From Orenia metallireducens (GTDB taxonomy: Bacteria; Bacillota; Halanaerobiia; Halobacteroidales; Halobacteroidaceae), in NCBI RefSeq assembly GCF_003001995.1, contig NZ_PVNB01000005.1:1-64000 (forward strand): DNA of 64,000 nt, written 5' to 3'. Both the position numbers and the translations under genes were made by a program. This document shows, one piece after another, positions 39,206 to 56,176 of this stretch. The notes under the pieces were generated by a model. That model ran no database searches, had not been told where the DNA came from, and worked only from the letters and a program-made list of their open reading frames with translations. The first letter of the stretch is position 1, and each line of letters opens with the position of its first letter.

Positions 39206-40456
39206 TCAATAACTAAAAACTCCATCCTTATTCTCTTTAAAGAAGTCAGCATAGCTTAGATTGAAGAGATTATCTAATCTATCATTTAGGTCTATTCTAT
39301 CTTTAATCAACCTGCCATAAACACCAGAACCATCAATCTCTCCTTGGAAGATTGCTCCCTTTAATTTATTACCTTCTAGAATCAACTTTTGATAATTATC
39401 CTTATCCTCTATAAACAAAATCTGATAGCTATCATCTTCAACCTCAATTAAACCATAAGTAATAGTTGATAAACCTAAAAATCTCATTGAATTTTGATAA
39501 GCAAAATTATCACTAAGCTTGGTACTAATACCTGCCATATTAGAAGCAGCTACCTCTCCTTGCTTAGTAGCTAAAGGCCAAATCGGAGTTAAAGTTAACT
39601 CATTACTAAATAACTCCTGAGATTGAGCTACATCACCAGCTGCATAAATATCCTCTAGATTAGTCTGCTGATGCTTATTCACTACTATTCCTTGATCTAC
39701 TTCTATATCTGTTTCTTTGATTAAATCTATATTAGGTCTAATACCTGTAGCTACTACAATTAACTCTCCAGCTATTATCCTATCATCGGCCAACTCCAAC
39801 CCTACAACAGAATTATTATCATCAACCAAGACCTTCTTAGCCCTAGCACCAATAACTATCTCAATTCCCTTCTCTTCAAACCTAGTTTGGTATCTAGAAG
39901 CTGCTTTAGCATCTAACTGTAATGGTAAGATTCTATCTGCCATCTCAACAATAGTTACTTTAACTCCTAGCTCAGCCAATCCTATCGCTGCATCTACTCC
40001 TACCAGTCCTGCCCCAATAACTATCGCTTGTTGGATCTCTTCTGCTTTCTCTTTAATCTCTAGAGCATCATCTAAATTCCTTAAACCATAAATACCTTCA
40101 GTTTCATCTAAATTGTTAATAGGTGGGAAAAAGGAGCTTGCTCCTGTAGCTAATAATAACTTATCATAAGCAACATTTTCTCCATCTTCTAAGAGAAGTA
40201 ATTTTTGCTTAGGTAGAACAGAAGTAACAGACTTTCCTTTAAGCCAATTAATCTTATTCTCTGTAAAAAAGTACTTTGGGGTAAAGTCTAATTGCTCTAC
40301 ATCTCTCTGCCCACCAATTAGATAATGGAGCATACAGCGAGAGTAGACCTTAGTATCCTTAGAGATGATAGTTATCTCACTATCATCATCCAACTCCCTT
40401 AGCTTCTTAGCAGCACTAATTCCTGCTGCACTAGCACCTACAATTACATATTTCAT
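39206..40456 (-). CDS. FAD/NAD(P) oxidoreductase linked to CO dehydrogenase (FNOR)
   Basis: 416 residues. FAD-binding GASAAGISAAKKL at the N-terminus, NAD-binding VIGAGLVGVDAAIGLAELG in the middle, and IYAAGDVAQ late: the pyridine-nucleotide-disulphide oxidoreductase fold of the rubredoxin/ferredoxin reductase class. It follows cooF with a 4-bp overlap. The cooS-cooF-FNOR set is known in several anaerobes and is thought to pass electrons from CO to NAD(P) or to detoxifying enzymes. Confidence 0.88.
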   Translation of the reverse strand: MKYVIVGASAAGISAAKKLRELDDDSEITIISKDTKVYSRCMLHYLIGGQRDVEQLDFTPKYFFTENKINWLKGKSVTSVLPKQKLLLLEDGENVAYDKLLLATGASSFFPPINNLDETEGIYGLRNLDDALEIKEKAEEIQQAIVIGAGLVGVDAAIGLAELGVKVTIVEMADRILPLQLDAKAASRYQTRFEEKGIEIVIGARAKKVLVDDNNSVVGLELADDRIIAGELIVVATGIRPNIDLIKETDIEVDQGIVVNKHQQTNLEDIYAAGDVAQSQELFSNELTLTPIWPLATKQGEVAASNMAGISTKLSDNFAYQNSMRFLGLSTITYGLIEVEDDSYQILFIEDKDNYQKLILEGNKLKGAIFQGEIDGSGVYGRLIKDRIDLNDRLDNLFNLSYADFFKENKDGVFSY

Positions 40457-40902
40457 ACTCTTCCCTCCCCTACTTCAATTAATTCTATTGCTCCCATAGG
40501 ACAGTTTTCAACACAGGCTGTTTCTTCCTTATCCTTACATAAATCACACTTAAAAGCCACATTAGTTTGAGTATCCTTCTTAATCATTCCATAGGAACAG
40601 CTCATTACACACATCCAACAACCAGCACATCTATCCTGATCTAAGGAGACAATTCCACTCTCTTTATCCTTAGTTAAAGCACCAGACATACAGGCTTCAA
40701 CACATTCTGGATCATCACAATGGCGACAGAAAAGTGGAGATAGTTCCCCCTGATTACTCTGTTTAACTAAATTAGCACTTTGATTAGTAGTATCTGATAA
40801 ATTTAGACTATCAATATCAGTATTATTACTTTTAGCCATACAAGCTAACACACAGCCTTTACAGGCTTCACATAGATCACGATCAATATATATTCTCTTC
40901 AT
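40453..40902 (-). CDS. cooF: CooF-like polyferredoxin
   Basis: 149 residues with four Cys groups for up to four [4Fe-4S] clusters: CEACKGCVLAC, CRHCDDPECVEAC, CAGCWMCVMSC and CDLCKDKEETACVENC. It carries electrons from CooS to the FNOR. Starts behind AAGGAGG and overlaps the FNOR gene by 4 bp. Confidence 0.92.
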   Translation of the reverse strand: MKRIYIDRDLCEACKGCVLACMAKSNNTDIDSLNLSDTTNQSANLVKQSNQGELSPLFCRHCDDPECVEACMSGALTKDKESGIVSLDQDRCAGCWMCVMSCSYGMIKKDTQTNVAFKCDLCKDKEETACVENCPMGAIELIEVGEGRV

Positions 40903-40952
40903 AAGATTATAAAGTCCCTCCTTTAACTTAGTGAAAATTCAGACTTTTTTAA

Positions 40953-40980
40953 TAAGACCTGTGATTTATCACAGGTCTTA
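40953..40980 (-). other. intercistronic hairpin between cooS and cooF
   Basis: Perfect 13-bp stem TAAGACCTGTGAT/ATCACAGGTCTTA with a 2-base loop. Neither strand has a T-run after it, so it looks like an mRNA processing or stability element rather than a terminator. Confidence 0.6.
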
Positions 40981-40989
40981 CTCTTAAAA

Positions 40990-42900
40990 CTAAGCTGGAC
41001 GTTGACACTCATCTTCATTTTCCAATCCTAGATTAGTTCTTCTATCTAAAATAATCTCTTCTAACTTATCAGCACTACTCTCAATTTCAGTGTCTATAAT
41101 CAACTGACCTCCAGTAATTTCAGGTAAGCTCTTAGTTAGAGTATCGACTATAATCTCACTTCCTGTGACAAATGGAGGTAAAGCTAAGTGTAATGGTAAT
41201 CCTAGTGCCAATCCAAAGGCACCATCAGCTAAGGCCTGCTCCTCTAACCATTGAGGAGCTGATAATACTGCTGGAAGTTGTGGTAAATCAACATCCAATG
41301 CTTTAGCTAACTCCACAGCAACCTGCTCTACCCGACCAATTGATAAACAAGGTCCAAAGTTCAATACAGGAGGTATGCCTAACTCTTCACAGACCTCTCT
41401 TAAATTATCTCCTGCTAAACTAGCAGCACTAGGAGAGACCAATCCACAATTCTCTAAGCCTCCTGTTGTACAACCAGCTGATAAGACTAAGATATCACGC
41501 TTGATTAGCTCCTTAGTCAATCCTACTGAGAAGACATCATGTCCTTTGGCTGTCAAGTTAGAACATCCTACTACAGCAGCTACACCTTTGATCTTACCAC
41601 TAGCAATTAAATCAATTAATGCTTTGTAATTTCCTCCTAAGAACTTACGTAATGACTTCTCACTAACACCAGTTACTACATCATCATAACCATGATCCTT
41701 TGGAATATCAATCTCAACCTGGCTACGGCGATTCTGATAGCTCTCTACTGCTGCTTTAATCAGCTTATCAGTAATTTCAGGTGCTTTAGCTGGATCAAAC
41801 TTAATCATCTCCGCACTAGCTTTCTTAGCCACATCATCAATTGCAATCATCTTGACATCATACTCTTGAGCTACTAACTCTAAACCTGGAATAGTACAGT
41901 TAAATTCTGATACTATCAAGTCAATACCACCAGTAGCTACTAAAGCCTCACTAGTATAGTTATTACCAGCATGACCTGCAAAGACATCCTTGTAATGTGC
42001 CCCACGTAGTTGCAAATCTTGACCTACACAGGTTGAACCAACTATCTTAAATCCTTTTGCTCCAGCCTCTTGAGCCAGCTTAGTAGCTTCTTTTGTCACT
42101 AAAGCATCCTGTAAATGGGCAATCATTGTATGCTGATGACCTGTTATTACAATATTGATATAATCTTCATCTACAACCTTGAACCCAACCTTATCTTGAG
42201 TTATTTCTGGCTCCCCTAACATTACATCATTAAGCAAATTAGTCATATGTAGTCCATACAATCCTGTAGAGATTCCTAAGTTAAGCACATGCATTAACAT
42301 ATCCACTGGATCACTAGATAGGTTAGTGCTAGTCTTCACAAGGGCATCAAAAACTTCTGATTTAGCTCCCCCTGGCATAATATCTAGCTCTTTCCACTTC
42401 TTAAGCCTTGGTTCATAAGCCAGTTTCTCTACTAACTCCATCTTCTGATAACGAGGCTTATATAGATCAGCCAATACCTTCTCGGCTACTTGAACTGCTT
42501 TATCATTTACATCTTCAGCCTCAACTTCAAAAAGCTCAGCCAATTCATCTAACATCTCTAACCCCTTTAACTCTGTAGCATAATTACCTAGACCTGCTTC
42601 TCTTAAATTATTAGCTGTATTCTCAACTACATGAAGATAACAGGCTGCTCCTGCAGCTACATTTCTTAGGAAATTGCGAGATACAATCGTATCAGCATCG
42701 GCACCACAGACTCCTCTTGGTGATTTAGGAGTAATACGACAAGGTCCATTAGAGCAGAGACGACAACAAACACCCTTCTTTCCAAAACCACATTTCACAG
42801 ATTGCTTAGGTTCACGATTGAATGAAGTCTCCAAATCTGGCTTACTATCCAAAAAGTCACATAACCTACAATCAGCAGAAGTACATCTTTCTTTAACCAC
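40990..42900 (-). CDS. cooS: anaerobic carbon monoxide dehydrogenase, catalytic subunit
   Basis: 636 residues, the usual length. N-terminal cysteines CTSADCRLC...CGFGKKGVCCRLC...C form the D and B clusters. C-cluster ligand regions visible are GHQHTMIAH, STCVGQD, EFNCTIPG, VVGCSN, SAGCTTGGLENCG and NFGPCLSIGR. It oxidises CO to CO2. There are no acetyl-CoA synthase genes nearby, so it serves redox or CO detoxification. GTG start behind GGGGGAT. Downstream of an Rrf2 regulator with operators in between. Confidence 0.96.
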   Translation of the reverse strand: MVKERCTSADCRLCDFLDSKPDLETSFNREPKQSVKCGFGKKGVCCRLCSNGPCRITPKSPRGVCGADADTIVSRNFLRNVAAGAACYLHVVENTANNLREAGLGNYATELKGLEMLDELAELFEVEAEDVNDKAVQVAEKVLADLYKPRYQKMELVEKLAYEPRLKKWKELDIMPGGAKSEVFDALVKTSTNLSSDPVDMLMHVLNLGISTGLYGLHMTNLLNDVMLGEPEITQDKVGFKVVDEDYINIVITGHQHTMIAHLQDALVTKEATKLAQEAGAKGFKIVGSTCVGQDLQLRGAHYKDVFAGHAGNNYTSEALVATGGIDLIVSEFNCTIPGLELVAQEYDVKMIAIDDVAKKASAEMIKFDPAKAPEITDKLIKAAVESYQNRRSQVEIDIPKDHGYDDVVTGVSEKSLRKFLGGNYKALIDLIASGKIKGVAAVVGCSNLTAKGHDVFSVGLTKELIKRDILVLSAGCTTGGLENCGLVSPSAASLAGDNLREVCEELGIPPVLNFGPCLSIGRVEQVAVELAKALDVDLPQLPAVLSAPQWLEEQALADGAFGLALGLPLHLALPPFVTGSEIIVDTLTKSLPEITGGQLIIDTEIESSADKLEEIILDRRTNLGLENEDECQRPA

Positions 42901-44242: not shown

Positions 44243-44779
44243 CTACTGGCTACAGCGTTTGATAGAACGCTCTAACCACTCTACATAAGCCGCTTCACGC
44301 AAAATTGCACTCTCTAACACTAGATAATCACCAAATTCTTGACTTCCAAACTGAGGAACTTCACTATATCCATCTATTTTTTTCTTTAAAGTAGCCAGTT
44401 TCTCCCTTCTTTGCTCTAATTGACTCTCTAGTAATTCAACCAAATGCTCTTGCTCTATATTACTTGAGAAATACATTCGTAATCTAAACTTATCTTTAGC
44501 AGTTGGAACCATCTTCTCATCCTTATTTAACCATTCTAATAGCTCCTCTCTACCTTTATCCTTAAGCGAATAGACCTTCTTTTCTAAGGCTTCTCCTGCA
44601 ATTACAGTTTCATATTCTATTAAACCTTCATCGACTAATCTCTTTAATTCTGGATAAATCTGACTATGCCTTGCTCTCCAAAAGTTTCCTAATTCAGCCT
44701 TAAACTCCTTAGTAATATCATAACCTGTACTTGGTCTACGATTAATTAAGCCCAAAATTGCATATTTTAAAGTTCTCAT
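44243..44779 (-). CDS. PadR-family transcriptional regulator
   Basis: 178 residues. N-terminal winged helix MRTLKYAILGLINRRPSTGYDI with the FWRARHSQIYPELKRLVDEG recognition segment, followed by the C-terminal dimerisation coiled coil (PadR subfamily 2). PadR proteins often sense phenolic acids or drugs. It is divergent from the OYE-type reductase gene, with an ATGT-N8-ACAT operator between, so it likely represses that gene. Confidence 0.92.
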   Translation of the reverse strand: MRTLKYAILGLINRRPSTGYDITKEFKAELGNFWRARHSQIYPELKRLVDEGLIEYETVIAGEALEKKVYSLKDKGREELLEWLNKDEKMVPTAKDKFRLRMYFSSNIEQEHLVELLESQLEQRREKLATLKKKIDGYSEVPQFGSQEFGDYLVLESAILREAAYVEWLERSIKRCSQ

Positions 44780-44817
44780 CTGATTATACCTCCTAATGTA
44801 TTAAACTTTCTTAATCT

Positions 44818-44823
44818 ATTATA
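44818..44823 (-). promoter_or_regulatory. extended -10 of the padR gene
   Basis: Minus strand TGATATAAT, a TGN-TATAAT extended -10 about 40 bp upstream of the padR start. Confidence 0.5.
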
Positions 44824-44849
44824 TCATTAACTAGAAAAATTAAAAGCAC

Positions 44850-44891
44850 AATCATGTCAATATTTACATGATTTCTTTTGCGTGATATATT
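44850..44891 (+). promoter_or_regulatory. PadR operator overlapping the reductase promoter
   Basis: Inverted repeat AATCATGT (44850-44857) and ACATGATT (44866-44873): exactly the PadR consensus ATGT-N8-ACAT. The plus-strand -35 TTTACA (44863-44868) lies in it, with -10 TATATT (44886-44891) after a 17-bp spacer. Confidence 0.8.
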
Positions 44892-44949
44892 TATTATAAG
44901 GTATTAAAATAGTAATAATTGAAAAAATATGAAGAAGAAAGGAGAACAA

Positions 44950-46944
44950 ATGATAGACTATAAGAATTTATTTACACCAACCAAAATTGGTTCTTTGGAG
45001 CTTAAAAACCGCTTTGCCCTTGCACCAATGGGACCTTTAGGATTGGGTGATGCAGAAGGTGGATTTAACCAACGAGGAATTGATTATTATACTCAGCGAG
45101 CTAAAGGAGGCACAGGTCTAATTATTACAGGGGTTACCTTTGTAGATAATGAGATAGAAGAGCATGGAATGCCTAGTGTTCCTTGTCCAACCCATAATCC
45201 TGTTCACTTTATCAGAACAGCCAAAGAAATGACTGAAAGAATTCATGCTTATCAGTCCAAGGTCTTTTTACAAATGTCTGGTGGCTTTGGTCGAGTGACT
45301 ATCCCCACCAATTTAGGAGAATACCCTCCAGTAGCACCATCACCAATTCAGCATAGATGGCTTGATAAGACCTGTCGTGAATTGACAGTTGAGGAGATTC
45401 AGACTATCGTCAAAAAATTTGGTGAAGGAGCTTATAATGCTAAACGGGCTGGCTTTGATGGAGTTCAGATTCATGCTGTCCATGAAGGGTATTTAATTGA
45501 CCAATTTGCTATTTCTTTGTTCAATCATCGTAATGATGAGTACGGTGGTTCTTTAGAGAATAGACTCCGTTTTGCGAGAGAAATTGTAGAGGAGATTAAA
45601 GAACGCTGTGGAGAAGATTTCCCAGTTACTCTACGCTATAGTCCTAAAAGCTTTATTAAAGGTTTACGTGATGGGGCCTTGCCAGGTGAAGAGTTTGAAG
45701 AACAAGGACGGGATTTAGATGAAGGGATTAAAGCAGCTCAACTCTTAGTCTCCTATGGCTATGATGCTTTAGATGTTGATGTAGGCTCTTATGACTCTTG
45801 GTGGTGGAGCCATCCCCCAATGTATCAAGAAAAGGGATTATATAGACCTTATGCTAAACTGATGAAGGAAAATGTAGATGTTCCAATTATCTGTGCAGGA
45901 AGAATGGATAATCCCCAGATGGCAACAGAAGCAATTGCTGATGGCACCTGTGATATCGTTAGTTTAGGTCGTCCCTTACTGGCTGACCCTGATTATGTTA
46001 ATAAACTTCGTCGTGGCGAGGTAGAGGATATTCGTCCATGCATCTCTTGCCAAGAAGGCTGTATGGGTCGGATTCAAGAATATTCAATCTTAAACTGTGC
46101 AGTCAATCCTCAAGCTTGCCGTGAACGAGTGACAGCCTATAATCCAATTCTAAAGCAAAAGAAAGTCTTGGTTATAGGTGGCGGAGTGGCTGGTTGTGAA
46201 GCTGCTAGAGTCTCAGCTTTAAGAGGTCATCAAGTAGAGTTGCTAGAAAAAAATGATAGATTAGGTGGTAACTTAATCCCTGGTGGTGCTCCTGACTTTA
46301 AAGAAGATGATATTGCATTAGCTAATTGGTATACCCATCAATTAGAAAAATTAGAGGTTGAGGTGAAATATAATACTACAGCTACCAAAGATTCAATCTT
46401 AGCTGCTAACTATGATGTAGTTATTATCGCTACAGGCTCAACACCTAAAGTGCTCCCCTTAGGTAATGATCAGCAGGTCTTGACCGCTACTGAAGTATTA
46501 AATAAAGAAAAAGACTGTGGAGATAAAACAGTTATTATCGGTGGAGGATTGGTTGGCTGTGAAACAGCACTCTGGTTAGCTCAACAAGGCAAGGACGTTA
46601 CCATTGTAGAGGCAATGGATAATTTACTTCAAAACAATGGTCCTTTATGCCATGCCAATAGTGAGATGCTAGAGGAATTGATTCCTTATCATAATATTGA
46701 AGTAATTACTAATGCAACAGCCACTGGCTATAAAAATAATCAGCTTAAAATTAAGGTAGATCAAAATGAGAAAGAACTTGCTTGTGATAGTGTGATTTTA
46801 GCTATTGGTTATCAATCAGAAGATTCTTTGTACCAAGAGCTAAAATTTGATATCCCAGAAATCTACCTATTAGGTGATGCTAAAAAGGTATCAAATATTA
46901 TGTATGGTATCTGGGATGCTTTTGAAGTAGCTAACCATATCTAA
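44950..46944 (+). CDS. OYE/BaiCD-type NADH:flavin oxidoreductase (PadR-linked)
   Basis: About 664 residues. An N-terminal FMN TIM barrel starts LFTPTKIGSLELKNRFALAPMG, with the HAVHEGYLIDQF active-site region. An Fe-S motif of the form CxxCxxxC-x11-C follows (begins CISCQEGC, near 370-390). A C-terminal FAD/NAD domain has VIGGGVAGCEAARV and VIIGGGLVGCETALW. This is the 2,4-dienoyl-CoA reductase / enoate reductase / BaiCD architecture that reduces activated C=C bonds. ATG 44950 is preferred, behind AAAGGAG. An esterase gene follows. Confidence 0.92.
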   Translation: MIDYKNLFTPTKIGSLELKNRFALAPMGPLGLGDAEGGFNQRGIDYYTQRAKGGTGLIITGVTFVDNEIEEHGMPSVPCPTHNPVHFIRTAKEMTERIHAYQSKVFLQMSGGFGRVTIPTNLGEYPPVAPSPIQHRWLDKTCRELTVEEIQTIVKKFGEGAYNAKRAGFDGVQIHAVHEGYLIDQFAISLFNHRNDEYGGSLENRLRFAREIVEEIKERCGEDFPVTLRYSPKSFIKGLRDGALPGEEFEEQGRDLDEGIKAAQLLVSYGYDALDVDVGSYDSWWWSHPPMYQEKGLYRPYAKLMKENVDVPIICAGRMDNPQMATEAIADGTCDIVSLGRPLLADPDYVNKLRRGEVEDIRPCISCQEGCMGRIQEYSILNCAVNPQACRERVTAYNPILKQKKVLVIGGGVAGCEAARVSALRGHQVELLEKNDRLGGNLIPGGAPDFKEDDIALANWYTHQLEKLEVEVKYNTTATKDSILAANYDVVIIATGSTPKVLPLGNDQQVLTATEVLNKEKDCGDKTVIIGGGLVGCETALWLAQQGKDVTIVEAMDNLLQNNGPLCHANSEMLEELIPYHNIEVITNATATGYKNNQLKIKVDQNEKELACDSVILAIGYQSEDSLYQELKFDIPEIYLLGDAKKVSNIMYGIWDAFEVANHI

Positions 46945-46991: not shown

Positions 46992-47975
46992 ATGTACCTA
47001 AATAGAATGATTGTTTTAACAATAATATTAGCTTACTTATTAATCTCAAATTTTGGAGGTGATGTTTTGGCTCAGAATAATAATCTAACAAGCCAGAATC
47101 TCAATGTTCAATTAAAAGAGCCTTTAATTCAGTTAATTTCAGATGTTGTTTATGAACAAGTACCTATGGCTGGCTATAATAATGTTGCTATGAAAATGGA
47201 TATCTTAAAACCAGAAAAGGATAAAAAAATGCCAGCGATTATTTACATTCCTGGTGGAGGTTTTATTTCTGCCAATAAAGATAGCTATATTCAACAGAGA
47301 ATGAAGCTTGCCAAAGCTGATTATGTTGTTGCCAGCATTGAATATCGGGTTGCTCCCACTGTTACTTTTCCTCAACCTTTAGAAGATGTCAAAGCAGCAA
47401 TCCGTTACCTTAAAGCCCATGCTGAGCAGTTTAATATAGATCCTAATAAAATTGGAGTAATGGGAGATTCAGCAGGTGGATATCTAGCTGCAATAACTGG
47501 TACTACTAATGGAATGAAGCAATTTGATCAAGGTGATAATTTAGAGCAAAGTAGTGATATCCAAGCCGTTGTTGATCTGTATGGATTATCTGATTTAACA
47601 AAGATTGGAGATGATTATTCTCAGCAAGTACAGCAAGCACATAAATCAGCTGGAGCAACTGAAGCTCTATTGGTCAATGGTAGCCCTGTCTTTGGAGGTC
47701 AAGATGGTGGAATTTTAGCCAATAAAGAAAAGGCTGAAGCTGCAAATCCAATTAGCTATATCTCTAAGCAGACTCCTCCTTTTCTATTGATGCATGGAGA
47801 TCAGGATAGGATGGTATCTCCTAGTCAAACTCAAATTTTACATCAAGCATTAGTAGAAAAAGGTATTGAATCTATCCGATATCTTGTCAAAGGTGCTGAT
47901 CATGGCGGGGTTTACTGGAATCAACCTGAAGTAATGAAGAATATAATTGACTTTTTCAATAAGTACCTTAAATAA
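46992..47975 (+). CDS. secreted alpha/beta-hydrolase (esterase/lipase)
   Basis: 327 residues with an N-terminal signal peptide (IVLTIILAYLLISNF...VLAQ). Oxyanion motif YIPGGGF, nucleophile elbow GDSAGGYLA, acid in HGDQDRMV and catalytic His in GADHGG: the hormone-sensitive-lipase/BD-FAE esterase pattern. It is outside the inner membrane, so it probably hydrolyses an external ester. Forms a unit with the PadR-controlled reductase and ends at a very strong terminator. Confidence 0.9.
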   Translation: MYLNRMIVLTIILAYLLISNFGGDVLAQNNNLTSQNLNVQLKEPLIQLISDVVYEQVPMAGYNNVAMKMDILKPEKDKKMPAIIYIPGGGFISANKDSYIQQRMKLAKADYVVASIEYRVAPTVTFPQPLEDVKAAIRYLKAHAEQFNIDPNKIGVMGDSAGGYLAAITGTTNGMKQFDQGDNLEQSSDIQAVVDLYGLSDLTKIGDDYSQQVQQAHKSAGATEALLVNGSPVFGGQDGGILANKEKAEAANPISYISKQTPPFLLMHGDQDRMVSPSQTQILHQALVEKGIESIRYLVKGADHGGVYWNQPEVMKNIIDFFNKYLK

Positions 47976-48093: not shown

Positions 48094-48121
48094 AAATATA
48101 CTTATTATAATAAGTATATTT
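48094..48121 (-). terminator. AT-rich terminator of the CocE-type gene
   Basis: 12-bp arms AAATATACTTAT/ATAAGTATATTT (48094-48105 with 48110-48121) overlapping the stop codon of the hydrolase gene. Confidence 0.5.
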
Positions 48122-50315
48122 ACTTACCTTGTTTTACTAGAGGTAAGACTGGCAATTGCAGATATGATAACGCTATTTCACCTGTATAAATTGTATTCTC
48201 TGACCCTTTTCGATAACTCTCTTCATTATAATTTACCCACCGATTATCTACTGGATCAATCTCTAAACAGATCTTCCATCCAGCTCTAATAACTCCTGTA
48301 GTGGGGAAAGTTCCTACTTCACAACTAACCATTTCTTCAGGAACTAAGGGTTGATATGCCTCTTTAGTATGCTTATAAACTGGCAAATAGTCTCTAGAAC
48401 GTTCTTGATCTAATTCACGATGGGATGCCAGCATAGCACCAAATCCTAAAGGCAATTCTCGTTCCATACTAGTTCTGGCAGGATAGATTACTTCACGATC
48501 ATTTTCATCAAAAATACGAACTTTGATATGAATTTCCATATCATTAGTAGTTGAAGAGACATAAAGTCCAGCTTTAATATAGCCTGCAACTTCCAGATCT
48601 TCTTTTAGAGGTTCACTAATAAAAGTTGCACCTTCCACTCTTTCATTTATCGAATGATAGACATCAGCATTATAGCTAACCTTTCCATCAGCCTCTGGTT
48701 TACTCTCACTTAAAGACATCTTTTTTGCATCTAAATAAAATTTCTTATATTCTGTCCCTGGAACAGGCCAGTCCTCTTCATATCTCCAGTAGTATCCACC
48801 ATTACCAGTTCGCATTTGAATTGAGACTGGAGGCTCATCCATAATATCATTATCCTCACCTTTTAACCAATAATCAAAAAATGATCTATATTTATTCAGA
48901 TAGAATTCATTATACATCCAATAATGAATTCCACAGCCATTGACAACTAATAATTTCTTGTTTTCAGATGAACAATTGATATAGGCTTCAGAACTTCCTT
49001 TTCCATGTAAACTGGCATCGGGTTCTACAGCCGACCAAATAGGATAATCAATCTTTGATATATCACAACTAGACATATATTCGCCTTCTACTCCATAGGT
49101 CTCTTCATTCCAGAAAGGTTCATCCAATGCCTTTTTCATAAAATCATATTCCTGGGGAGTTGTACAAGGATCCATATTATCTGCACGATTAAAGAGTCCA
49201 CCACCACTATAAATATAATCACGGTAAGAGTCATAATCTCCCATAATCGGAATCATAGCTGTCAATCCTTTGGGTCTTCTTTGAGCTGCTAAATACTGGG
49301 TCATTGCATAATATGAAGCTCCAAACAGTCCAATCTTGCCTGATGACCAAGGCATATCTGCTGCCCATTCGATAGCATCACAATAATCCTCTGCATTCTT
49401 TCGTCCAAACTGCTTAAATAATTCATCTTCACTTAGTGGGTTTTGCCCCATCCCCCGTTCTTCTATATTAATAACTACATATCCATAAGGAACCCAATCT
49501 AAAGCACAAGGTTGTTCAAAGGCTTCTGAAATTGGCACCAAACAAGGTGGTGGGCCATCTGGATGCACAACCTCATCCTCAGGATTTAAATTAGGGATAG
49601 GTAATGCAGAACCAAAGCATGATGCCATTCTGCGGAAAAATGCACCTTGTAGCAGCTTCTTAGTCTCAGTGCTCGAATAATCATCATAAAATTTGTCTTC
49701 TAGCATCTCAAAATATTCTTCATCTCCATCTTTTATTGGAAAACCATTGATAAAAGATTTTCCAAAAACACCCATACACATTACAACAGGATACTCTCCT
49801 CCCTGTAATGGTCGATAGACATCAGCTAGAACATAATTACCATCTCGTGTAGGAATTCTGACATCAGTCTCCTTTAAAATTCCTGCTGCACTTCTTCTGA
49901 CAAGATTCTTAGCAGTTTCAATTCTAGCTAACCTCTTCCCGAGCTTATCCATCATCTCTGCTGTAGCCTCTTCATATTTCTGTGGCTCCATTACTGGATT
50001 CCAAGTATACTGATACTCCTCAATTATTGCTTTATCTTGCTCAGTAATAGTCTTTAGCCCAATCAGCAATCTAGCAGTATTAACTACTTGATAATGACTG
50101 ACTGAAGCTTCCCTACAATCAGCCTCTACTACAAAATCTACTGGGGTAATATAAGCTTTAGCCTGACAAGAACCAATAACTAGATCTCCAATAGAAAAAG
50201 TAATCTCTTCTCCCTGCTCATATTCATAACACCCCTGCTCATCTATCACACCACTGTGAGTCTGAGTATAATAATCTAATCCTTTTATACTTCCATCTAA
50301 AAATATTCCCTTCAT
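48120..50315 (-). CDS. CocE/NonD-family acyl hydrolase with extra N-terminal domain
   Basis: 731 residues, no signal peptide. Residues 1-65 form a small beta domain (FLDGSIKGLDYYTQTHSG...TFSIGDLVIGS) typical of repeats in secreted adhesins and lipoproteins and odd here. The hydrolase core resembles X-Pro dipeptidyl-peptidase/cocaine esterase: VRIPTRDGNYVLADVYRP, nucleophile GLFGASYYAM, late His in NGCGIHYWMYNEFY, then the jelly-roll C-terminal domain. It probably cleaves an ester or amide. Last gene of the TetR-controlled cluster, 4 bp after the permease gene. Confidence 0.85.
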   Translation of the reverse strand: MKGIFLDGSIKGLDYYTQTHSGVIDEQGCYEYEQGEEITFSIGDLVIGSCQAKAYITPVDFVVEADCREASVSHYQVVNTARLLIGLKTITEQDKAIIEEYQYTWNPVMEPQKYEEATAEMMDKLGKRLARIETAKNLVRRSAAGILKETDVRIPTRDGNYVLADVYRPLQGGEYPVVMCMGVFGKSFINGFPIKDGDEEYFEMLEDKFYDDYSSTETKKLLQGAFFRRMASCFGSALPIPNLNPEDEVVHPDGPPPCLVPISEAFEQPCALDWVPYGYVVINIEERGMGQNPLSEDELFKQFGRKNAEDYCDAIEWAADMPWSSGKIGLFGASYYAMTQYLAAQRRPKGLTAMIPIMGDYDSYRDYIYSGGGLFNRADNMDPCTTPQEYDFMKKALDEPFWNEETYGVEGEYMSSCDISKIDYPIWSAVEPDASLHGKGSSEAYINCSSENKKLLVVNGCGIHYWMYNEFYLNKYRSFFDYWLKGEDNDIMDEPPVSIQMRTGNGGYYWRYEEDWPVPGTEYKKFYLDAKKMSLSESKPEADGKVSYNADVYHSINERVEGATFISEPLKEDLEVAGYIKAGLYVSSTTNDMEIHIKVRIFDENDREVIYPARTSMERELPLGFGAMLASHRELDQERSRDYLPVYKHTKEAYQPLVPEEMVSCEVGTFPTTGVIRAGWKICLEIDPVDNRWVNYNEESYRKGSENTIYTGEIALSYLQLPVLPLVKQGK

Positions 50316-50319
50316 CTTT

Positions 50320-51261
50320 TTACCTCCTAATAAACTTGTTCTTCCATCTCCATTTCACCAAAACCGGTGTTATTACTGCACTTAAGACCACAGCCATGGC
50401 AATTTGGGATAAGGCTCTCTCCATATAGACTGCATAAGAACTATCTGACTGAAGCAATAAGGCTGGAACTGTCAAAGCCAATCCTGCCACTGATGAAATT
50501 CCCATTGATACATATCCACTACTCTTTAAAAGTAGTTTTTCAACTAATACTAACGGTAAATTATTTAATAAGGTAAAGATAATAAATAAAATAATTCCTG
50601 TACCAACAGACTGAAAGGCTATTTTCAAGTCTATAGATGACCCTAGGCAAAATCCTAAAAAGGGCAACATAATCTCCATTCCAGGTCGAGTAAATTTCTT
50701 TATTTCTTGGTCGATACTTCCTAGAATAATCCCAATAATAAATGGAAGAATGGTAGCGGCTATAGAATTTAAATCTATACCATTTCCACCTGCATAGCCT
50801 AAAACAGCAACTGGTATAAAAGGAAGTCCTGTTACATTCAGTAAAGCAAACCCTGCTAAATCCCCTTCATCACCATATTGCTTCATCAGAGCAAGATATA
50901 ACCCAGCATTACAACTACAGATACAAGCAACTAAAGCCAAAGAAGAGATTCCATAAATTCCACCTTCACCTAAAACTCTGATTATAAATAAAGAACAAAC
51001 TATATTTAGTACTAATTTTAATACAATTAAAAAACCACTCTTTTTGACACACTTTCTTATGCTCTTGAAATTTGTATCAATACCAGCAAAAATTAATATA
51101 ATTCCAACAACAGTCATAGTACCTTGCTTAGAGAAGATAGCTGTCATAGGATTTCCTATCTCCACTATGTCAGGTATAAATGTGTGAATCACAGCCCCGA
51201 TTACCATCGGCACTAGCATAAGTCCTCCTGGTAGCTTTTTAACATTACTTAATATATTCAT
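50320..51261 (-). CDS. KdgT-like permease
   Basis: About 313 residues, around ten membrane helices. The pattern VKKLPGGLMLVPMVIGAVIHT at the start and LPFIIGIILGSID...FTRPGMEIMLPFLGF in the middle match the 2-keto-3-deoxygluconate transporter (KdgT) family, cation symporters for sugar acids or carboxylates. It sits in a cluster with a hydrolase and an enoate-reductase-type enzyme, so a carboxylate or conjugate substrate is plausible. Start ATG 51261; a TTG directly before it is possible. Confidence 0.8.
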   Translation of the reverse strand: MNILSNVKKLPGGLMLVPMVIGAVIHTFIPDIVEIGNPMTAIFSKQGTMTVVGIILIFAGIDTNFKSIRKCVKKSGFLIVLKLVLNIVCSLFIIRVLGEGGIYGISSLALVACICSCNAGLYLALMKQYGDEGDLAGFALLNVTGLPFIPVAVLGYAGGNGIDLNSIAATILPFIIGIILGSIDQEIKKFTRPGMEIMLPFLGFCLGSSIDLKIAFQSVGTGIILFIIFTLLNNLPLVLVEKLLLKSSGYVSMGISSVAGLALTVPALLLQSDSSYAVYMERALSQIAMAVVLSAVITPVLVKWRWKNKFIRR

Positions 51262-51341
51262 CAACTAATTCTCCCTCTATTTCTTATTACTTAAGATCAT
51301 ACACTCTAACCCAACTTTAAAATCTATTAATAATTAGAAAA

Positions 51342-51422
51342 TTAGCAACGACTAAACACGAATCATCGCAAATAAAAATATAAATATTTTACGATTTATG
51401 ATTCGTGCTAATTCGTTGCTAA
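51342..51422. repeat. 81-bp imperfect inverted repeat
   Basis: TTAGCAACGA (51342) pairs with TCGTTGCTAA (to 51422) and CACGAATCAT (51357) with ATGATTCGTG (51398). It lies in the 190-bp gap between the OYE and permease genes of one operon. No T-run follows. Confidence 0.7.
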
Positions 51423-51453
51423 AAATAATCCAAAAATCTCTCAATTAATTAGA

Positions 51454-53463
51454 TTAAATTTCAACTGCTGTATCAAAACCACTATGAACTGCAGTATATA
51501 CATCACCAATCTCTTTTCCATCACCAATAACAAATACTTCAGTTGGAGGTACTAGATTTCTTAATTCATTTATTGTCTGCTTACGAGGCTTCATCCCTAC
51601 TGCTAATACAACTGTATCTGCTTCATATTCATTCTTGCGGAAGTTAGAATTGATTGTTTTAATACCAGTAGTAGTTATCTCTTCTACATTAGTGTTGGTT
51701 ACAATTTCTACATTATTTTCTTCAAGTAGAGATTGTAATGAAAATTTATTAATCAAAGCTGCCCCTCTAAATAGATCCTCAGGACCACACATATCAACAA
51801 TAGTTACATCTTTTCCTTGCTTAGCAAGATTTAAAGCAGACTCTGCACCTGTTAGTCCACCACCGATTACTATAACCTTCTCTCCAGCTTCTACTTTACC
51901 AGAATCTATATCTCCAACCCAGTGTACGTTATCATTATCTATACCAGAAATATTTGGAATAAATGGCTCTGCTCCAACAGCTAAAATTAATGCATCTGGA
52001 TTCTCTTTAGCAATTACTTCAGCAGTAGCTTCAGTATTTAATTTAATCTCAGCTCCACATTTTTGGGTTTGTCTAACTATCCAGTTTAAGAAGTTACTCA
52101 AATCTTCTTTAAATTCAAGGTCTGTTGCATGGTGTAAAGTACCACCAAGCTTATCTGATTTCTCAAAAAGAACGACCTCATGTCCACGCTCAACTGCTGT
52201 TAAAGCAGCTTGCATTCCGGCTGGACCTCCTCCGACAATTACTACTTTTTTCTGCTCATCAGCTTTAAGAACTCCTTCAGGATAATATGTTTCACGACCA
52301 TTGATAGGATTTACTGCACAGCGTGTCTTTTTAAAGAAGGCTGCACGTCCACAGCAAGTATTACAACGCAGACATGGTCTGATATCCTCTTCCTTGCCAT
52401 GAGCTGATTTTCTCATAAACTCTGGATCTGATACAAATGGTCTAGCCATCGCTACAAAATCAACTAGCCCTCTAGCTAATATCTCTTCTGCATTCTCTAA
52501 GTTCATAATTGAACCAACAGTGGCTACCTTTACACTATCTCCAACTGCTTTTTTGATCTTTTCTGCAAAATGAACATTATATTTGTAAGGTATATAATTA
52601 GGTTGAATCATATATTGAATTACAAATGGATTTGCTAGCATTCCAGCAGAAACATGAAGGATATCTATCTTATCCTCTATCAGCTTGACAAATTCGATTA
52701 CTTCTTCAACTTTCATTCCACCTTCAACAAGTTCATCAGCACTTATTCGATATTCAATAATAAAGTTCTCTCCTACTTTTTCTCTAACAGCATCAAGCAT
52801 CTCAATACAGAATCTAGCTCTATTTTCAAAGCTTCCTCCATATCTATCAGTTCTTCTATTCACATAAGAAGAAAGAAATTGAGCAGGCAACATTCCATGA
52901 GCTCCATGAATCATAATCATTTTAAAGCCACTATCTTTACATCTAGCAGCAGCATCAGCATAATCTTGAATAGTCTTATAAATTAACTCTCTACTCATCT
53001 CTTCAACTTCTCCAGGAGTTTCTCCCTTTAATTTTGCAAAGTATTCATCAATCTCAGCAGGAAGAGGAGTTGAACTTACTGGCTTAAGTCCTTTTTCAGC
53101 CAAAACCATAGAATTTGAAAAACGACCACCATGATTTAATTCAATCGAGATATTTGCTCCATATCTTTGAATCTCATCTGCTAACTCATCTAGCCCCATC
53201 TTGACATTATCATGACCTAAATTTAATTGACCTTCATGGTCCATAGCATGTTGCCAGTTGATTGCAGAATCTCCTATAGTTACACTAGCTGCTCCACCTT
53301 TAGCAATCGGTCGATAAAATTCAATTAATTCTTTGGTTACCCAACCTTCTGGAGTTGCTAAACACGGTACCATCGGTGCTGACTGAATTCTATTCTTAAA
53401 TTCAACACCCTTAATTGTAATTGGAGAAAATACATTTTTATATCTATCCATCGCTTTACTCAT
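51454..53463 (-). CDS. OYE/BaiCD-type NADH:flavin oxidoreductase (TetR-linked)
   Basis: 669 residues with the same three-part build as the gene at 44950: FMN barrel (FSPITIKGVEFKNRIQSAPMV, MIHGAHGMLPAQFLS), Fe-S motif CLRCNTCC...RCAVNP, then FAD (VVIVGGGPAGMQAAL) and NAD (VIVIGGGLTGAESALNL) sites. It probably reduces an unsaturated acid or steroid-like enone with NADH. The sequence differs clearly from the PadR-linked copy, especially the start of the barrel. A TetR-type operator lies in the short gap upstream. Good AGGAGG ribosome-binding site. Confidence 0.92.
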   Translation of the reverse strand: MSKAMDRYKNVFSPITIKGVEFKNRIQSAPMVPCLATPEGWVTKELIEFYRPIAKGGAASVTIGDSAINWQHAMDHEGQLNLGHDNVKMGLDELADEIQRYGANISIELNHGGRFSNSMVLAEKGLKPVSSTPLPAEIDEYFAKLKGETPGEVEEMSRELIYKTIQDYADAAARCKDSGFKMIMIHGAHGMLPAQFLSSYVNRRTDRYGGSFENRARFCIEMLDAVREKVGENFIIEYRISADELVEGGMKVEEVIEFVKLIEDKIDILHVSAGMLANPFVIQYMIQPNYIPYKYNVHFAEKIKKAVGDSVKVATVGSIMNLENAEEILARGLVDFVAMARPFVSDPEFMRKSAHGKEEDIRPCLRCNTCCGRAAFFKKTRCAVNPINGRETYYPEGVLKADEQKKVVIVGGGPAGMQAALTAVERGHEVVLFEKSDKLGGTLHHATDLEFKEDLSNFLNWIVRQTQKCGAEIKLNTEATAEVIAKENPDALILAVGAEPFIPNISGIDNDNVHWVGDIDSGKVEAGEKVIVIGGGLTGAESALNLAKQGKDVTIVDMCGPEDLFRGAALINKFSLQSLLEENNVEIVTNTNVEEITTTGIKTINSNFRKNEYEADTVVLAVGMKPRKQTINELRNLVPPTEVFVIGDGKEIGDVYTAVHSGFDTAVEI

Positions 53464-53505
53464 AACTTCATTCCTCCTAAATTATTTTTGATCACCCTTT
53501 GCTTT

Positions 53506-53527
53506 GTTTGTTGTTACTAACTAACAT
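53506..53527 (-). promoter_or_regulatory. half-degenerate TetR-type operator upstream of the OYE gene
   Basis: Minus strand ATGTTAGTTAGTAAC then AACAAAC: the left arm and centre match the perfect sites at 55149 and 55319; the right arm is weaker. Confidence 0.6.
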
Positions 53528-53544
53528 TGGATTTAAAATAAATC

Positions 53545-54045
53545 TTAAGCAAATAATTTCAAGACAAATCTTTGAAACTTATCAACACCTACACCCACAT
53601 ACCAAACTCCAACAATCATAGAAATCCCAACTTGAATTGGCATTGAGCCCATCTTTTCTAATCCTATTGGGGTTAGAATAGTTAGACCGATAGCCCATCC
53701 ACATAACCAAGCTGGTAAAAATACATACTTTCTCATCGGTTTTGCGATAAGAACAGCCATTCCACCTAGGATAAAAAGTGTAAAAAAGAGCTCTAAATTC
53801 TGGTTCCACTCTAATATTTTCATTATCTTCAGTGCTAATACTGACCAGATATCTCCACATAAAAAGCCAATTGTTATCTTCATAGCATCCTCAAGCTTAT
53901 TCCCATTTGCTACATAAATTCCAGCACAGATTAATGCTACAGCACCTGTTGCAACTCCAATATATGGAGATAAAACTGCCCAAATTGGTGGTAACAAAGC
54001 AATCCCTAAGGCTAGTGTTAATGTATTTTTAGTTCTTTCTTTCAC
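53545..54045 (-). CDS. DUF1097-like inner membrane protein
   Basis: 166 residues, five or six membrane helices covering nearly all of the protein (GIALLPPIWAVLSPYIGVATGAVALICAGIY and later GVWYVGVGVDKFQRF). The pattern resembles DUF1097 (YcdZ type), of unknown function. GTG start behind GGAGAG. It lies between the flavodoxin and OYE genes of the TetR cluster, so it may be an accessory transporter for the same substrate. Confidence 0.6.
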   Translation of the reverse strand: MKERTKNTLTLALGIALLPPIWAVLSPYIGVATGAVALICAGIYVANGNKLEDAMKITIGFLCGDIWSVLALKIMKILEWNQNLELFFTLFILGGMAVLIAKPMRKYVFLPAWLCGWAIGLTILTPIGLEKMGSMPIQVGISMIVGVWYVGVGVDKFQRFVLKLFA

Positions 54046-54086
54046 AATTTTACTCTCCTTTAAAGAATCAATCCTTATTTAATCTC

Positions 54087-55022
54087 TTATTTCTCTGGCA
54101 TAGTTGCTGAAATAAATTTTTTATAATTACTCATACGTCGCTTATATTCATCAGACATTAGCATTTTCTTAAATGTTTTTACAGTTTCATCGATATCTCC
54201 TGCATGTTCAAATTTACCAGATAAAGTATCATGGGCATGTTCTAACTGCTCTTCAGGAAAGTCAAATTTAACCTTACCATCTACAACCTTAATATCTCCT
54301 TTAATACCACATAAACAGCAGATTGCTTCTGTTGATTGATTGTCTAAGAAGAAGTTTCTACTATGACAGTGTGGGCAGATACCCTCTTCACCTAGATAAG
54401 CAGCATTTTCGATATCTTGAGCAGCTTTAGCAAGATTTACCCCTATTTGATGTGCTCTAGCAACTGTATCATCATTCATAACAGCATCAGTAGACCAAGG
54501 GAAGATATCGTTATCAATCACCTTCCAAGCTGGAGTTAACGCCTGCATTGCTGAATCACATTGCATCCTTGTTACCCAGTCAGAACCACCAAAGCCCATA
54601 TAAGAAACTACCTTGTCTTTTAAAATCCTTGGATCTGGAATCTTACCTCCGTTTTCTTTGGCGATTTTAGTAGCTATTACATTATTTCCCCTGTCCATTC
54701 TAGGTCCAAAACGGTCCGTGATTGTCTGAAAGATTCCAGGCACACCCTTCTCAAAGATAGGATTTGCAAAGATCACACCATCAGCATCTAACATCTTATC
54801 TAAAAGCCAATCAAAATCATCTTTTAAAGCACACATATTTCCTCTACCTGACATAAGTGCATTAACACAGGCAATACACCCAGTACAGTGTTCAATATCT
54901 AAATCAAGTAGGCGAATAAATTCAATATCTGCCCCCACTTCTTGTGCACCCATTAAGGCTTCTTTACACATAGCATCATTTTTTTGATTTTTTCTTCCAG
55001 CTGAAATACCTAAAATTTTCAT
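54087..55022 (-). CDS. flavodoxin-fold NAD(P)H reductase with zinc-ribbon tail
   Basis: About 311 residues from ATG 55022 behind AAGGAGAG. The N-terminal FMN-reductase/flavodoxin fold begins MKILGISAGRKNQKND, with CTGCIACVNALMSGRGN (ferredoxin-like cysteines) and DGVIFANPIFEKGVPG. Residues near 230-260 contain a CPHCHSRN...CCLCG knuckle, a rubredoxin or zinc-ribbon-like insert. It may deliver electrons to the OYE enzyme. First gene of the TetR-controlled operon, with the operator just upstream. Confidence 0.85.
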   Translation of the reverse strand: MKILGISAGRKNQKNDAMCKEALMGAQEVGADIEFIRLLDLDIEHCTGCIACVNALMSGRGNMCALKDDFDWLLDKMLDADGVIFANPIFEKGVPGIFQTITDRFGPRMDRGNNVIATKIAKENGGKIPDPRILKDKVVSYMGFGGSDWVTRMQCDSAMQALTPAWKVIDNDIFPWSTDAVMNDDTVARAHQIGVNLAKAAQDIENAAYLGEEGICPHCHSRNFFLDNQSTEAICCLCGIKGDIKVVDGKVKFDFPEEQLEHAHDTLSGKFEHAGDIDETVKTFKKMLMSDEYKRRMSNYKKFISATMPEK

Positions 55023-55126
55023 TTTTAATCTCTCCTTATATAATATTAATTTATTTAACCATAACATCATTCATAATAGCTTTATGTTTTATTACTACCT
55101 ATAGCCATTACTTTTTTAAGATTATG

Positions 55127-55172
55127 ATTATAAGCTTAGCTTTAATTTATGTTAGTTAGTAACAACTAACAT
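55127..55172 (-). promoter_or_regulatory. TetR-controlled promoter and operator
   Basis: Operator ATGTTAGTT-N6-AACTAACAT at 55149-55172. The minus-strand -35 CTAACA (55150-55155) lies in its arm and the -10 TATAAT is at 55127-55132 after a 17-bp spacer, so binding would block transcription of the flavodoxin operon. Confidence 0.75.
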
Positions 55173-55318
55173 TTTGTCTAAAATAAATTTATAATTAATT
55201 ATCAAAGATACTAGACTTTTATTAATCACCCTTTCTGTTTTATAAAATATTTAATTAATTTTTTGAGTGAAGTATTAACTAAAGGAGATTAGCTTTAATG
55301 CTTAATCATTTAGCATTT

Positions 55319-55342
55319 ATGTTAGTTATTGATAACTAACAT
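55319..55342 (-). promoter_or_regulatory. second TetR-type operator
   Basis: ATGTTAGTT-N6-AACTAACAT, identical in arms and spacing to the site at 55149, placed 20 bp after the tetR stop. Together with 55149 it frames a 146-bp stretch that could be looped. The rest of 55023-55361 shows no gene. Confidence 0.7.
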
Positions 55343-55361
55343 ATCATTTGAAATAAAACCT

Positions 55362-55937
55362 TTATGATTCAATTAGTGAATCAATATAATCTTTAATACA
55401 GTCCTCAAGACTAACTTCTTTTAACATCTCAGGTAAACAATTGATATTAAAGAATAAGCCAAAATTAGTTGACAGAAAATTAATTGTTAAAGCTTCTAAA
55501 TCTCTTTCCTGCTTAATTAGCCCTTTTTTCTGCATCGTTAAAAAATAGTTAACTAACTTCTCCTTTAACTTAAGAGGAAAGGTATCTAAAGGAGACTGCG
55601 GATTAGTAATCAATTCATCATTTTTTAATTCCATCAAGATTATCTTCTTATTATTTTCCATAGTTTCCTGATATAGCTGACTGATCTTTAACAGATCGTC
55701 TTTTAAATTATAAGTTAAATCATTCTCAAAAAATTCTTTGAATTTAGGAATATATACATATTCAGCAAAAGATTTATTGAATAAATTTAACTTGTTATTA
55801 AAGTGTCTAAAGACTGTCATCTCACTTACTTGAGCTTCATTAGCTATTTCCTTAATAGTAACAGAGTTATATCCTTTTTTAGAAAAAAGATTTATAGCTA
55901 CTTCCAAAATCACTTCATATGTATCTTTATTTGGCAC
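55362..55937 (-). CDS. TetR-family transcriptional regulator
   Basis: 191 residues. Helix-turn-helix near 20-50: FSKKGYNSVTIKEIANEAQVSEMTVFRHFNNK. The C-terminal ligand domain is unfamiliar. GTG start behind AAAGGAG. Immediately upstream of the cluster; palindromes with AACTAACAT arms occur at its own promoter and at the promoters downstream, so it probably represses the whole set until a ligand binds. Confidence 0.92.
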   Translation of the reverse strand: MPNKDTYEVILEVAINLFSKKGYNSVTIKEIANEAQVSEMTVFRHFNNKLNLFNKSFAEYVYIPKFKEFFENDLTYNLKDDLLKISQLYQETMENNKKIILMELKNDELITNPQSPLDTFPLKLKEKLVNYFLTMQKKGLIKQERDLEALTINFLSTNFGLFFNINCLPEMLKEVSLEDCIKDYIDSLIES

Positions 55938-55953
55938 TGTATATGCTCCTTTA

Positions 55954-55977
55954 TTATGTGTTATTATTCACTAACAT
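55954..55977 (-). promoter_or_regulatory. weak TetR-type operator upstream of tetR
   Basis: One arm reads CACTAACAT (8 of 9 match to AACTAACAT); the other is degenerate. It lies 17-40 bp before the tetR start, consistent with autoregulation. Confidence 0.45.
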
Positions 55978-56176
55978 TAACAGTCTAGCAAATATTATCG
56001 ATATTGTCAACTAGATCAATTAAATTAACAGCTAATGATTTAATTCCAAAGTAAATATCTAAGGCGTTAGAATACTTTTATTATTCTAATCGCCTACTTA
56101 TTATAAAAAATTTGAATCTCTGATATTTTACTAATAATCTCTTCCCTTCCCTGAATCTTTAATCTCTATCAACTCT

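Follow-up and report, generated by a model that had tools for sequence, protein, structure and literature searches.

Flavone reductase (FLR) is the first enzyme used by gut bacteria in the breakdown of plant flavonoids. An ortholog of this enzyme is the first structural gene of a TetR-controlled cluster in Orenia metallireducens, carried by a stretch of 64,000 nucleotides (contig NZ_PVNB01000005.1, positions 1 to 64,000) referred to here as the window. A sequence-only reading of this DNA had listed in the cluster a TetR regulator, a flavodoxin/zinc-ribbon reductase, DUF1097, an OYE reductase, a KdgT-like permease and a CocE hydrolase, a content borne out by Pfam and NCBIfam, and had seen in it a candidate new catabolic system, "not a pathway I can name". 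The sequence data give good support to one part of this proposal, namely that TetR governs a regulon with repeated operators and a catabolic or reductive role. They do not support its novelty: the first gene is an FLR ortholog, and orthologs of the OYE enzyme are encoded next to phloretin hydrolase, which places the core within anaerobic flavonoid degradation as already known. We propose that the cluster most likely represents known anaerobic flavonoid reduction in a variant form, under TetR control and without the known phloretin hydrolase. A flavonoid-responsive module of the FLR/Fcr kind, switched by TetR and acting on flavones and flavanones, is the function that we hold to be quite probable.

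Two described systems are the closest. In FLR, mutation of G106, W149, H271 or I275 strongly lowers or abolishes the activity, T279 is named in a proposed water relay, and NAD(P)H is not used directly, the electron donor being reported as unknown; apigenin was converted by each of 11 further putative FLRs (PMC7862272). In Clostridium butyricum, flr, fcr and phy are reported to be consecutive and chalcone isomerase to be unnecessary, Fcr being a FAD-dependent, barrel-type oxidoreductase (PMC11868195).

The flavone reductase ortholog and its neighbourhoods

According to Pfam and NCBIfam, the window reductase combines an FMN_red domain with a zinc-ribbon-like tail. A profile of four relatives matched PDB entry 7d38 (also 7d39, 7d3a and 7d3b) at 1.8e-153 over positions 1-309; the window protein and 7d38 share 64.7% identity along their whole length, including the C-terminal extended domain. 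The entry names its molecule only "Cd1"; because Flavonifractor plautii ATCC 29863 (locus L079) encodes a protein that matches 7d38 at 100% identity across 309 residues, we identify it as the F. plautii FLR. The entries 7d38-7d3b are presumably the structures of the FLR paper (PMC7862272). G106, W149, H271 and I275 are all present in the window protein, together with the C-terminal cysteines, and T279 is replaced by valine at a position that is variable among the relatives. The probable start is the ATG at 55022, with AAGGAGAG just upstream. In the phylogenetic tree, this protein and that of Halanaerobium salsuginis, a member of the same class and of a different family, are sisters (100/99) inside a Clostridium branch; two further genomes from the genus of the window gave only weak flavodoxin-domain matches. 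The window reductase is an ortholog of flavone reductase, and reduction of the C2=C3 bond is predicted from this relationship. The identity, the active-site residues and the cysteine-rich tail are shared with the F. plautii enzyme, whereas the TetR/operator control, the other neighbours, the valine at position 279 and a genome in which chalcone isomerase was not found set the window apart.

Scanning GTDB genomes yielded 39 loci, and clear FLR relatives are present in 35 of them. Their recurrent neighbours are chalcone isomerase (Chalcone_N), which adjoins FLR relatives in many genomes, an LVIVD-repeat protein, DUF1097, LysR or sigma-54 regulators and also 2-oxoacid:ferredoxin oxidoreductase, PTA_PTB and butyrate-kinase-like genes. 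DUF1097 orthologs (51-63% identity) adjoin FLR in C. carboxidivorans, C. drakei, C. muellerianum, Lachnoclostridium UBA5725 and a Lachnospiraceae genome, and a CocE-family protein is encoded near FLR and DUF1097 in locus L096. In the three Clostridium species, the adjacency of FLR (72-74%) and DUF1097 (62-63%) is that of the window, but these clusters also contain chalcone isomerase and the LVIVD-repeat protein, are under sigma-54, LysR or GntR regulation with no TetR, and are followed by oxidoreductase and kinase genes. Any DUF1097 was present in 12 of 199 genomes drawn at random from the phylum. The family was rejected as a guide on its own, the randomly drawn loci containing no other window genes at the cut-off used; the link between DUF1097 and flavonoids holds for the FLR-adjacent orthologs. 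The predicted structure of the window DUF1097 protein has a pLDDT of 53, and none of the five papers found to mention the family is about flavonoids as judged by the title and the opening of the abstract.

Other features recur in these neighbourhoods. C. carboxidivorans has a second, divergent DUF1097 (L063:9318-9908) in the interval from chalcone isomerase to FLR, which is thus flanked by two paralogs. The LVIVD-repeat protein of about 450 aa recurs beside chalcone isomerase and FLR (L063:6876-8225, L060:6073-7425, L167:9561-10955). In several clostridia, the gene divergent from FLR encodes an AraC-type regulator fused to a glycoside hydrolase family 39 domain (L069:7159-9684, with equivalents in L065, L070 and L075); this protein is possibly a sensor or an enzyme for flavonoid glycosides.

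Two OYE-type reductases

The OYE gene of the cluster (OYE1) encodes an OYE barrel, a pyridine-nucleotide oxidoreductase domain and 4Fe-4S cysteines, which is the architecture of Fcr. Its orthologs of at least about 75% identity all adjoin a phloretin hydrolase gene (five of the five found: L128, L129, where the OYE copy is frame-broken, L130, L221 and L222). In L221, phy, OYE and a type-II FLR form a row; in L222, OYE, DUF1097 and phy do so with a type-II FLR nearby; and the region upstream in C. puniceum (L130) contains a gene resembling a cyclase, along with others of the kind seen in phloroglucinol clusters (cf. PMC10470551). Since these orthologs adjoin phloretin hydrolase and a flr-fcr-phy row has been reported in C. 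butyricum, we read OYE1 as a candidate Fcr-type reductase. The window shares with the C. butyricum row and with the rows of L221, L128 and L222 the association of an FLR with an OYE/4Fe-4S reductase in which chalcone isomerase is dispensable, and OYE1 shares 75-83% identity with the OYEs from the rows with type-II FLR. Unlike these rows, the window has an FLR of the F. plautii type and not of the C. ljungdahlii type, and KdgT and CocE instead of a PF18089 hydrolase.

The second FLR type is 27-31% identical to that of the window (L128:5284-6234, L214:8472-9419, L221:10419-11384) and pairs with OYE and phloretin hydrolase genes, so that two FLR types stand in similar gene rows.

A second enzyme of the same kind (OYE2) is encoded in the window outside the cluster. 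An ortholog of 71% identity belongs to a phloretin-hydrolase operon of Clostridium CF012, and orthologs of 76-81% stand beside a PadR-type gene, as in the window, in H. salsuginis, C. beijerinckii and C. frigoris (L209, L210, L211). OYE1 and OYE2 are the only such matches in the window genome at 1e-40, and none was found at this threshold in the two genomes of the same genus. The PadR-OYE2 pair (44243-46944) forms a second reductase unit, separately regulated, beside the TetR cluster.

The TetR regulator and its operators

The operator, ATGTTAGTT-N6-AACTAACAT, occurs in the window as two perfect 24-bp palindromes, which are the only ones in the whole 4.1-Mb genome, and as a copy with two mismatches before the OYE gene; upstream of all three a TTTATTT is found. 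The full pair, the weaker copies and the overlap of the first operator with the -35 of the flavodoxin operon, all described in the sequence-only reading, were recovered. With up to 3 mismatches allowed, 4 sites were seen in the window versus 0.06 expected. In the genome as a whole, the operator pattern and its reversed-pattern control each gave 10 sites at 3 mismatches; because the counts are equal, loose copies elsewhere are uninformative, and the weight is carried only by both perfect copies and the two-mismatch copy inside the locus. The copy before tetR is weak by consensus (left arm 8/9, right arm 3/9), and its element ATGTTAGT...AATAACA is found at the same position in H. salsuginis. A distance of 170 bp, or 16.2 helical turns, separates operator 1 from operator 2 and would allow looping.

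Copies with two mismatches on contigs C3 and C9 were set aside, their contexts being unrelated. One of these sequences, ATGTTGGTTATTAATAACCAACAT (L038:6583-6606; G000:C3:166582), is itself perfectly palindromic, differs from the operator by two bases and sits between genes resembling an MgtC/SapB-type membrane protein and a glycosyltransferase.

In H. salsuginis (L040, the same as L062), the gene of a TetR with 72% identity immediately precedes that of a reductase with 75% identity, and a single perfect operator lies between the two. The reductase promoter there is CTAACA-17-TATATT (L040 12928-12956) and, as in the window, its -35 is the CTAACA of the operator. In both genomes, the tetR promoter, with an extended -10, is closely followed by ATGTTAGT. 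The longest strings common to the two tetR-reductase gaps are the operator arms; a single arm (13 nt) is not above the longest string of the shuffles, while the complete 18-position palindrome is. A TetR_N domain is accordingly found together with palindromes at the regulator's own promoter, where they are weak, and at the target promoter, where they are strong, in two species. These data are good evidence for a putative autoregulating repressor of the reductase. Since the TetR matches to PDB chains are chiefly through the DNA-binding domain, they do not allow the ligand to be deduced. The features of the locus are collected in Table 1.

Table 1. Features of the TetR-FLR cluster and of the adjacent OYE2 unit, in window positions
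Feature	Position	Strand	Remarks
tetR, TetR-family repressor, 191 aa, GTG start	55362..55937	-	Pfam TetR_N 1.6e-14; 72% ortholog precedes FLR in H. salsuginis
tetR promoter, TTGACA-17-TAGACT, extended -10	55982..56010	-	H. salsuginis counterpart TTGACA-17-TAGAAT
Weak operator copy ATGTTAGTGAATAATAACACATAA	55954..55977	-	directly downstream of tetR -10; predicted autoregulation site
Operator 2, perfect	55319..55342	.	directly downstream of tetR
Operator 1, perfect	55149..55172	.	covers -35 of FLR promoter; counterpart L040 12911-12934 perfect
FLR promoter, CTAACA-17-TATAAT	55127..55155	-	-35 inside operator 1
flr, flavone reductase ortholog, 311 aa	54087..55022	-	FMN_red domain and cysteine-rich C-terminal tail
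DUF1097 membrane protein, 166 aa	53545..54045	-	about 5 hydrophobic stretches; Pfam 2.6e-23
Operator copy, 2 mismatches	53504..53527	.	between DUF1097 and OYE genes
OYE1, FMN/4Fe-4S/FAD ene-reductase, Fcr-type candidate	51454..53463	-	75-83% orthologs beside phloretin hydrolase; cysteine motif
KdgT-family permease	50320..51264	-	Pfam KdgT 5.7e-96
CocE/NonD-family serine hydrolase, 731 aa	48120..50315	-	4 bp after permease; candidate triad S334, D433, H464
BD-FAE alpha/beta hydrolase after OYE2	46992..47975	+	Pfam BD-FAE 5.1e-58; association uncertain
OYE2, second OYE/4Fe-4S enzyme, same kind	44929..46944	+	outside 48120-55977, the range first noted
PadR-type regulator gene, divergent from OYE2	44243..44779	-	assigned by reading the sequence; divergent pair conserved in L209, L210, L211

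Elsewhere in the window (39206-42900), the translations read as a row resembling carbon monoxide dehydrogenase, a ferredoxin-like protein and an NAD(P)/FAD oxidoreductase.

Extent of the pathway and rival readings

We infer the reactions, the ligand, the transport roles of DUF1097 and KdgT and the role of CocE as follows. Ligand-free TetR would bind the palindromes over the FLR promoter -35, upstream of the OYE gene and at its own transcript start, and a flavonoid, or a product of one, would release it. FLR would reduce the C2=C3 bond of flavones and flavonols, giving flavanones, and the OYE/4Fe-4S enzyme would reductively open the flavanone C-ring to yield a dihydrochalcone, as Fcr-type enzymes do. 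Passage through the membrane could take place via DUF1097 and the KdgT-like permease, and the CocE-type serine hydrolase could cleave an ester or, less likely, stand in for phloretin hydrolase.

The permease belongs to KdgT at the family level only, with 172 bits versus the NCBIfam equivalog cut-off of 453.8. The serine triad of CocE, a family of esterases and amidases, is plausible; it was placed by motif spacing and its histidine is unmatched in the nearest solved relative. In 398 genomes, three CocE relatives were found, all weak. The 189-bp gap before the permease gene holds a hairpin and a terminator-like site, and for this reason KdgT and CocE perhaps stand outside the regulon or its transcript. 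The hairpin (51342-51422, between OYE and KdgT) is formed by a 25-nt inverted repeat (88%) around a spacer of 31 nt; it occurs only once in the window and may be a terminator or a processing site.

Several observations weigh against a flavonoid module. In the window genome (G000), neither chalcone isomerase (Chalcone_N; genome G347 matched in the same search) nor the PF18089 phloretin hydrolase (10 other FLR genomes matched in the same search) was found, the latter in contrast to the surroundings of the OYE1 orthologs. No close relative of phloroglucinol cyclohydrolase was found in it either, a cyclase-family query from C. puniceum, the identity of which rests on its gene neighbourhood in that species, giving only a partial match of 32%. 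The enzymes that mark the canonical flavone-to-phloroglucinol pathway, chalcone isomerase, phloretin hydrolase and dihydrophloroglucinol cyclohydrolase, are not recognised here. OYE1 is only 32-33% identical to the two OYEs found in Eubacterium ramulus, the species of the characterised Fcr, and falls in a different clade. KdgT and CocE, besides possibly escaping the regulon, have no flavonoid link of their own except the one distant CocE near FLR in L096. Finally, the TetR-FLR unit of H. salsuginis stands without adjoining DUF1097, OYE1, KdgT or CocE, its OYE2-PadR pair being elsewhere in the genome. From its gene content, the module looks truncated, leading from flavone to flavanone and to dihydrochalcone, with further steps doubtful. 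Since chalcone isomerase, the canonical phloretin hydrolase and a close cyclohydrolase were not found, it would more likely detoxify flavonoids or use them as electron acceptors than degrade them fully.

Complete cleavage, in which CocE would act as an unrelated phloretin hydrolase splitting the dihydrochalcone and the permease would move the product, is unlikely. The distribution of PF18089, not found here and yet present in the 10 other FLR genomes, is in agreement with it, as are the presence of a serine hydrolase with a plausible triad and the CocE relative of L096. However, this single distant neighbour is thin evidence, CocE relatives are few and weak, enzymes of this family act as far as known on esters and amides, and a close cyclohydrolase that would take the product was not found. 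A phloretin-hydrolase-independent anaerobic flavonoid cleavage in halophilic anaerobes, with CocE splitting the dihydrochalcone, a dedicated TetR sensing flavonoids and DUF1097 as a flavonoid-linked membrane component, appears improbable to us. It is quite improbable that flavonoids are not the natural substrate and that other unsaturated cyclic ketones or aromatics (e.g., coumarins or quinones) are detoxified or reduced: the FLR and OYE families do reduce activated alkenes broadly, the Halanaerobiales habitat is not rich in living plants and the pathway is truncated, but the orthologs of FLR, OYE1, OYE2 and DUF1097 sit in flavonoid gene neighbourhoods. A wholly new five-gene pathway, as first proposed, is very improbable. 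In its favour, TetR-FLR-DUF1097-OYE-KdgT-CocE did not turn up complete in any other genome examined; against it, flavonoid gene clusters contain orthologs of three of the five structural genes. Conservation of the genes together elsewhere, on which that proposal was to be judged, was observed for the pairs TetR-FLR, FLR-DUF1097, FLR-OYE and OYE-DUF1097.

A literature search gave no paper joining Orenia and flavonoids. Read as a TetR-switched module of flavone and flavanone reduction, the unnamed cluster would become a flavonoid module amenable to testing in halophilic Halanaerobiales, away from the gut. FLR would gain a cognate TetR and operator, a pair perhaps usable for sensing flavonoids, and DUF1097, an uncharacterised membrane family, is linked to flavonoid genes in several lineages. 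Both window OYEs are concrete candidates for Fcr-type enzymes, and the new contexts of FLR bear on the question of its electron donor.

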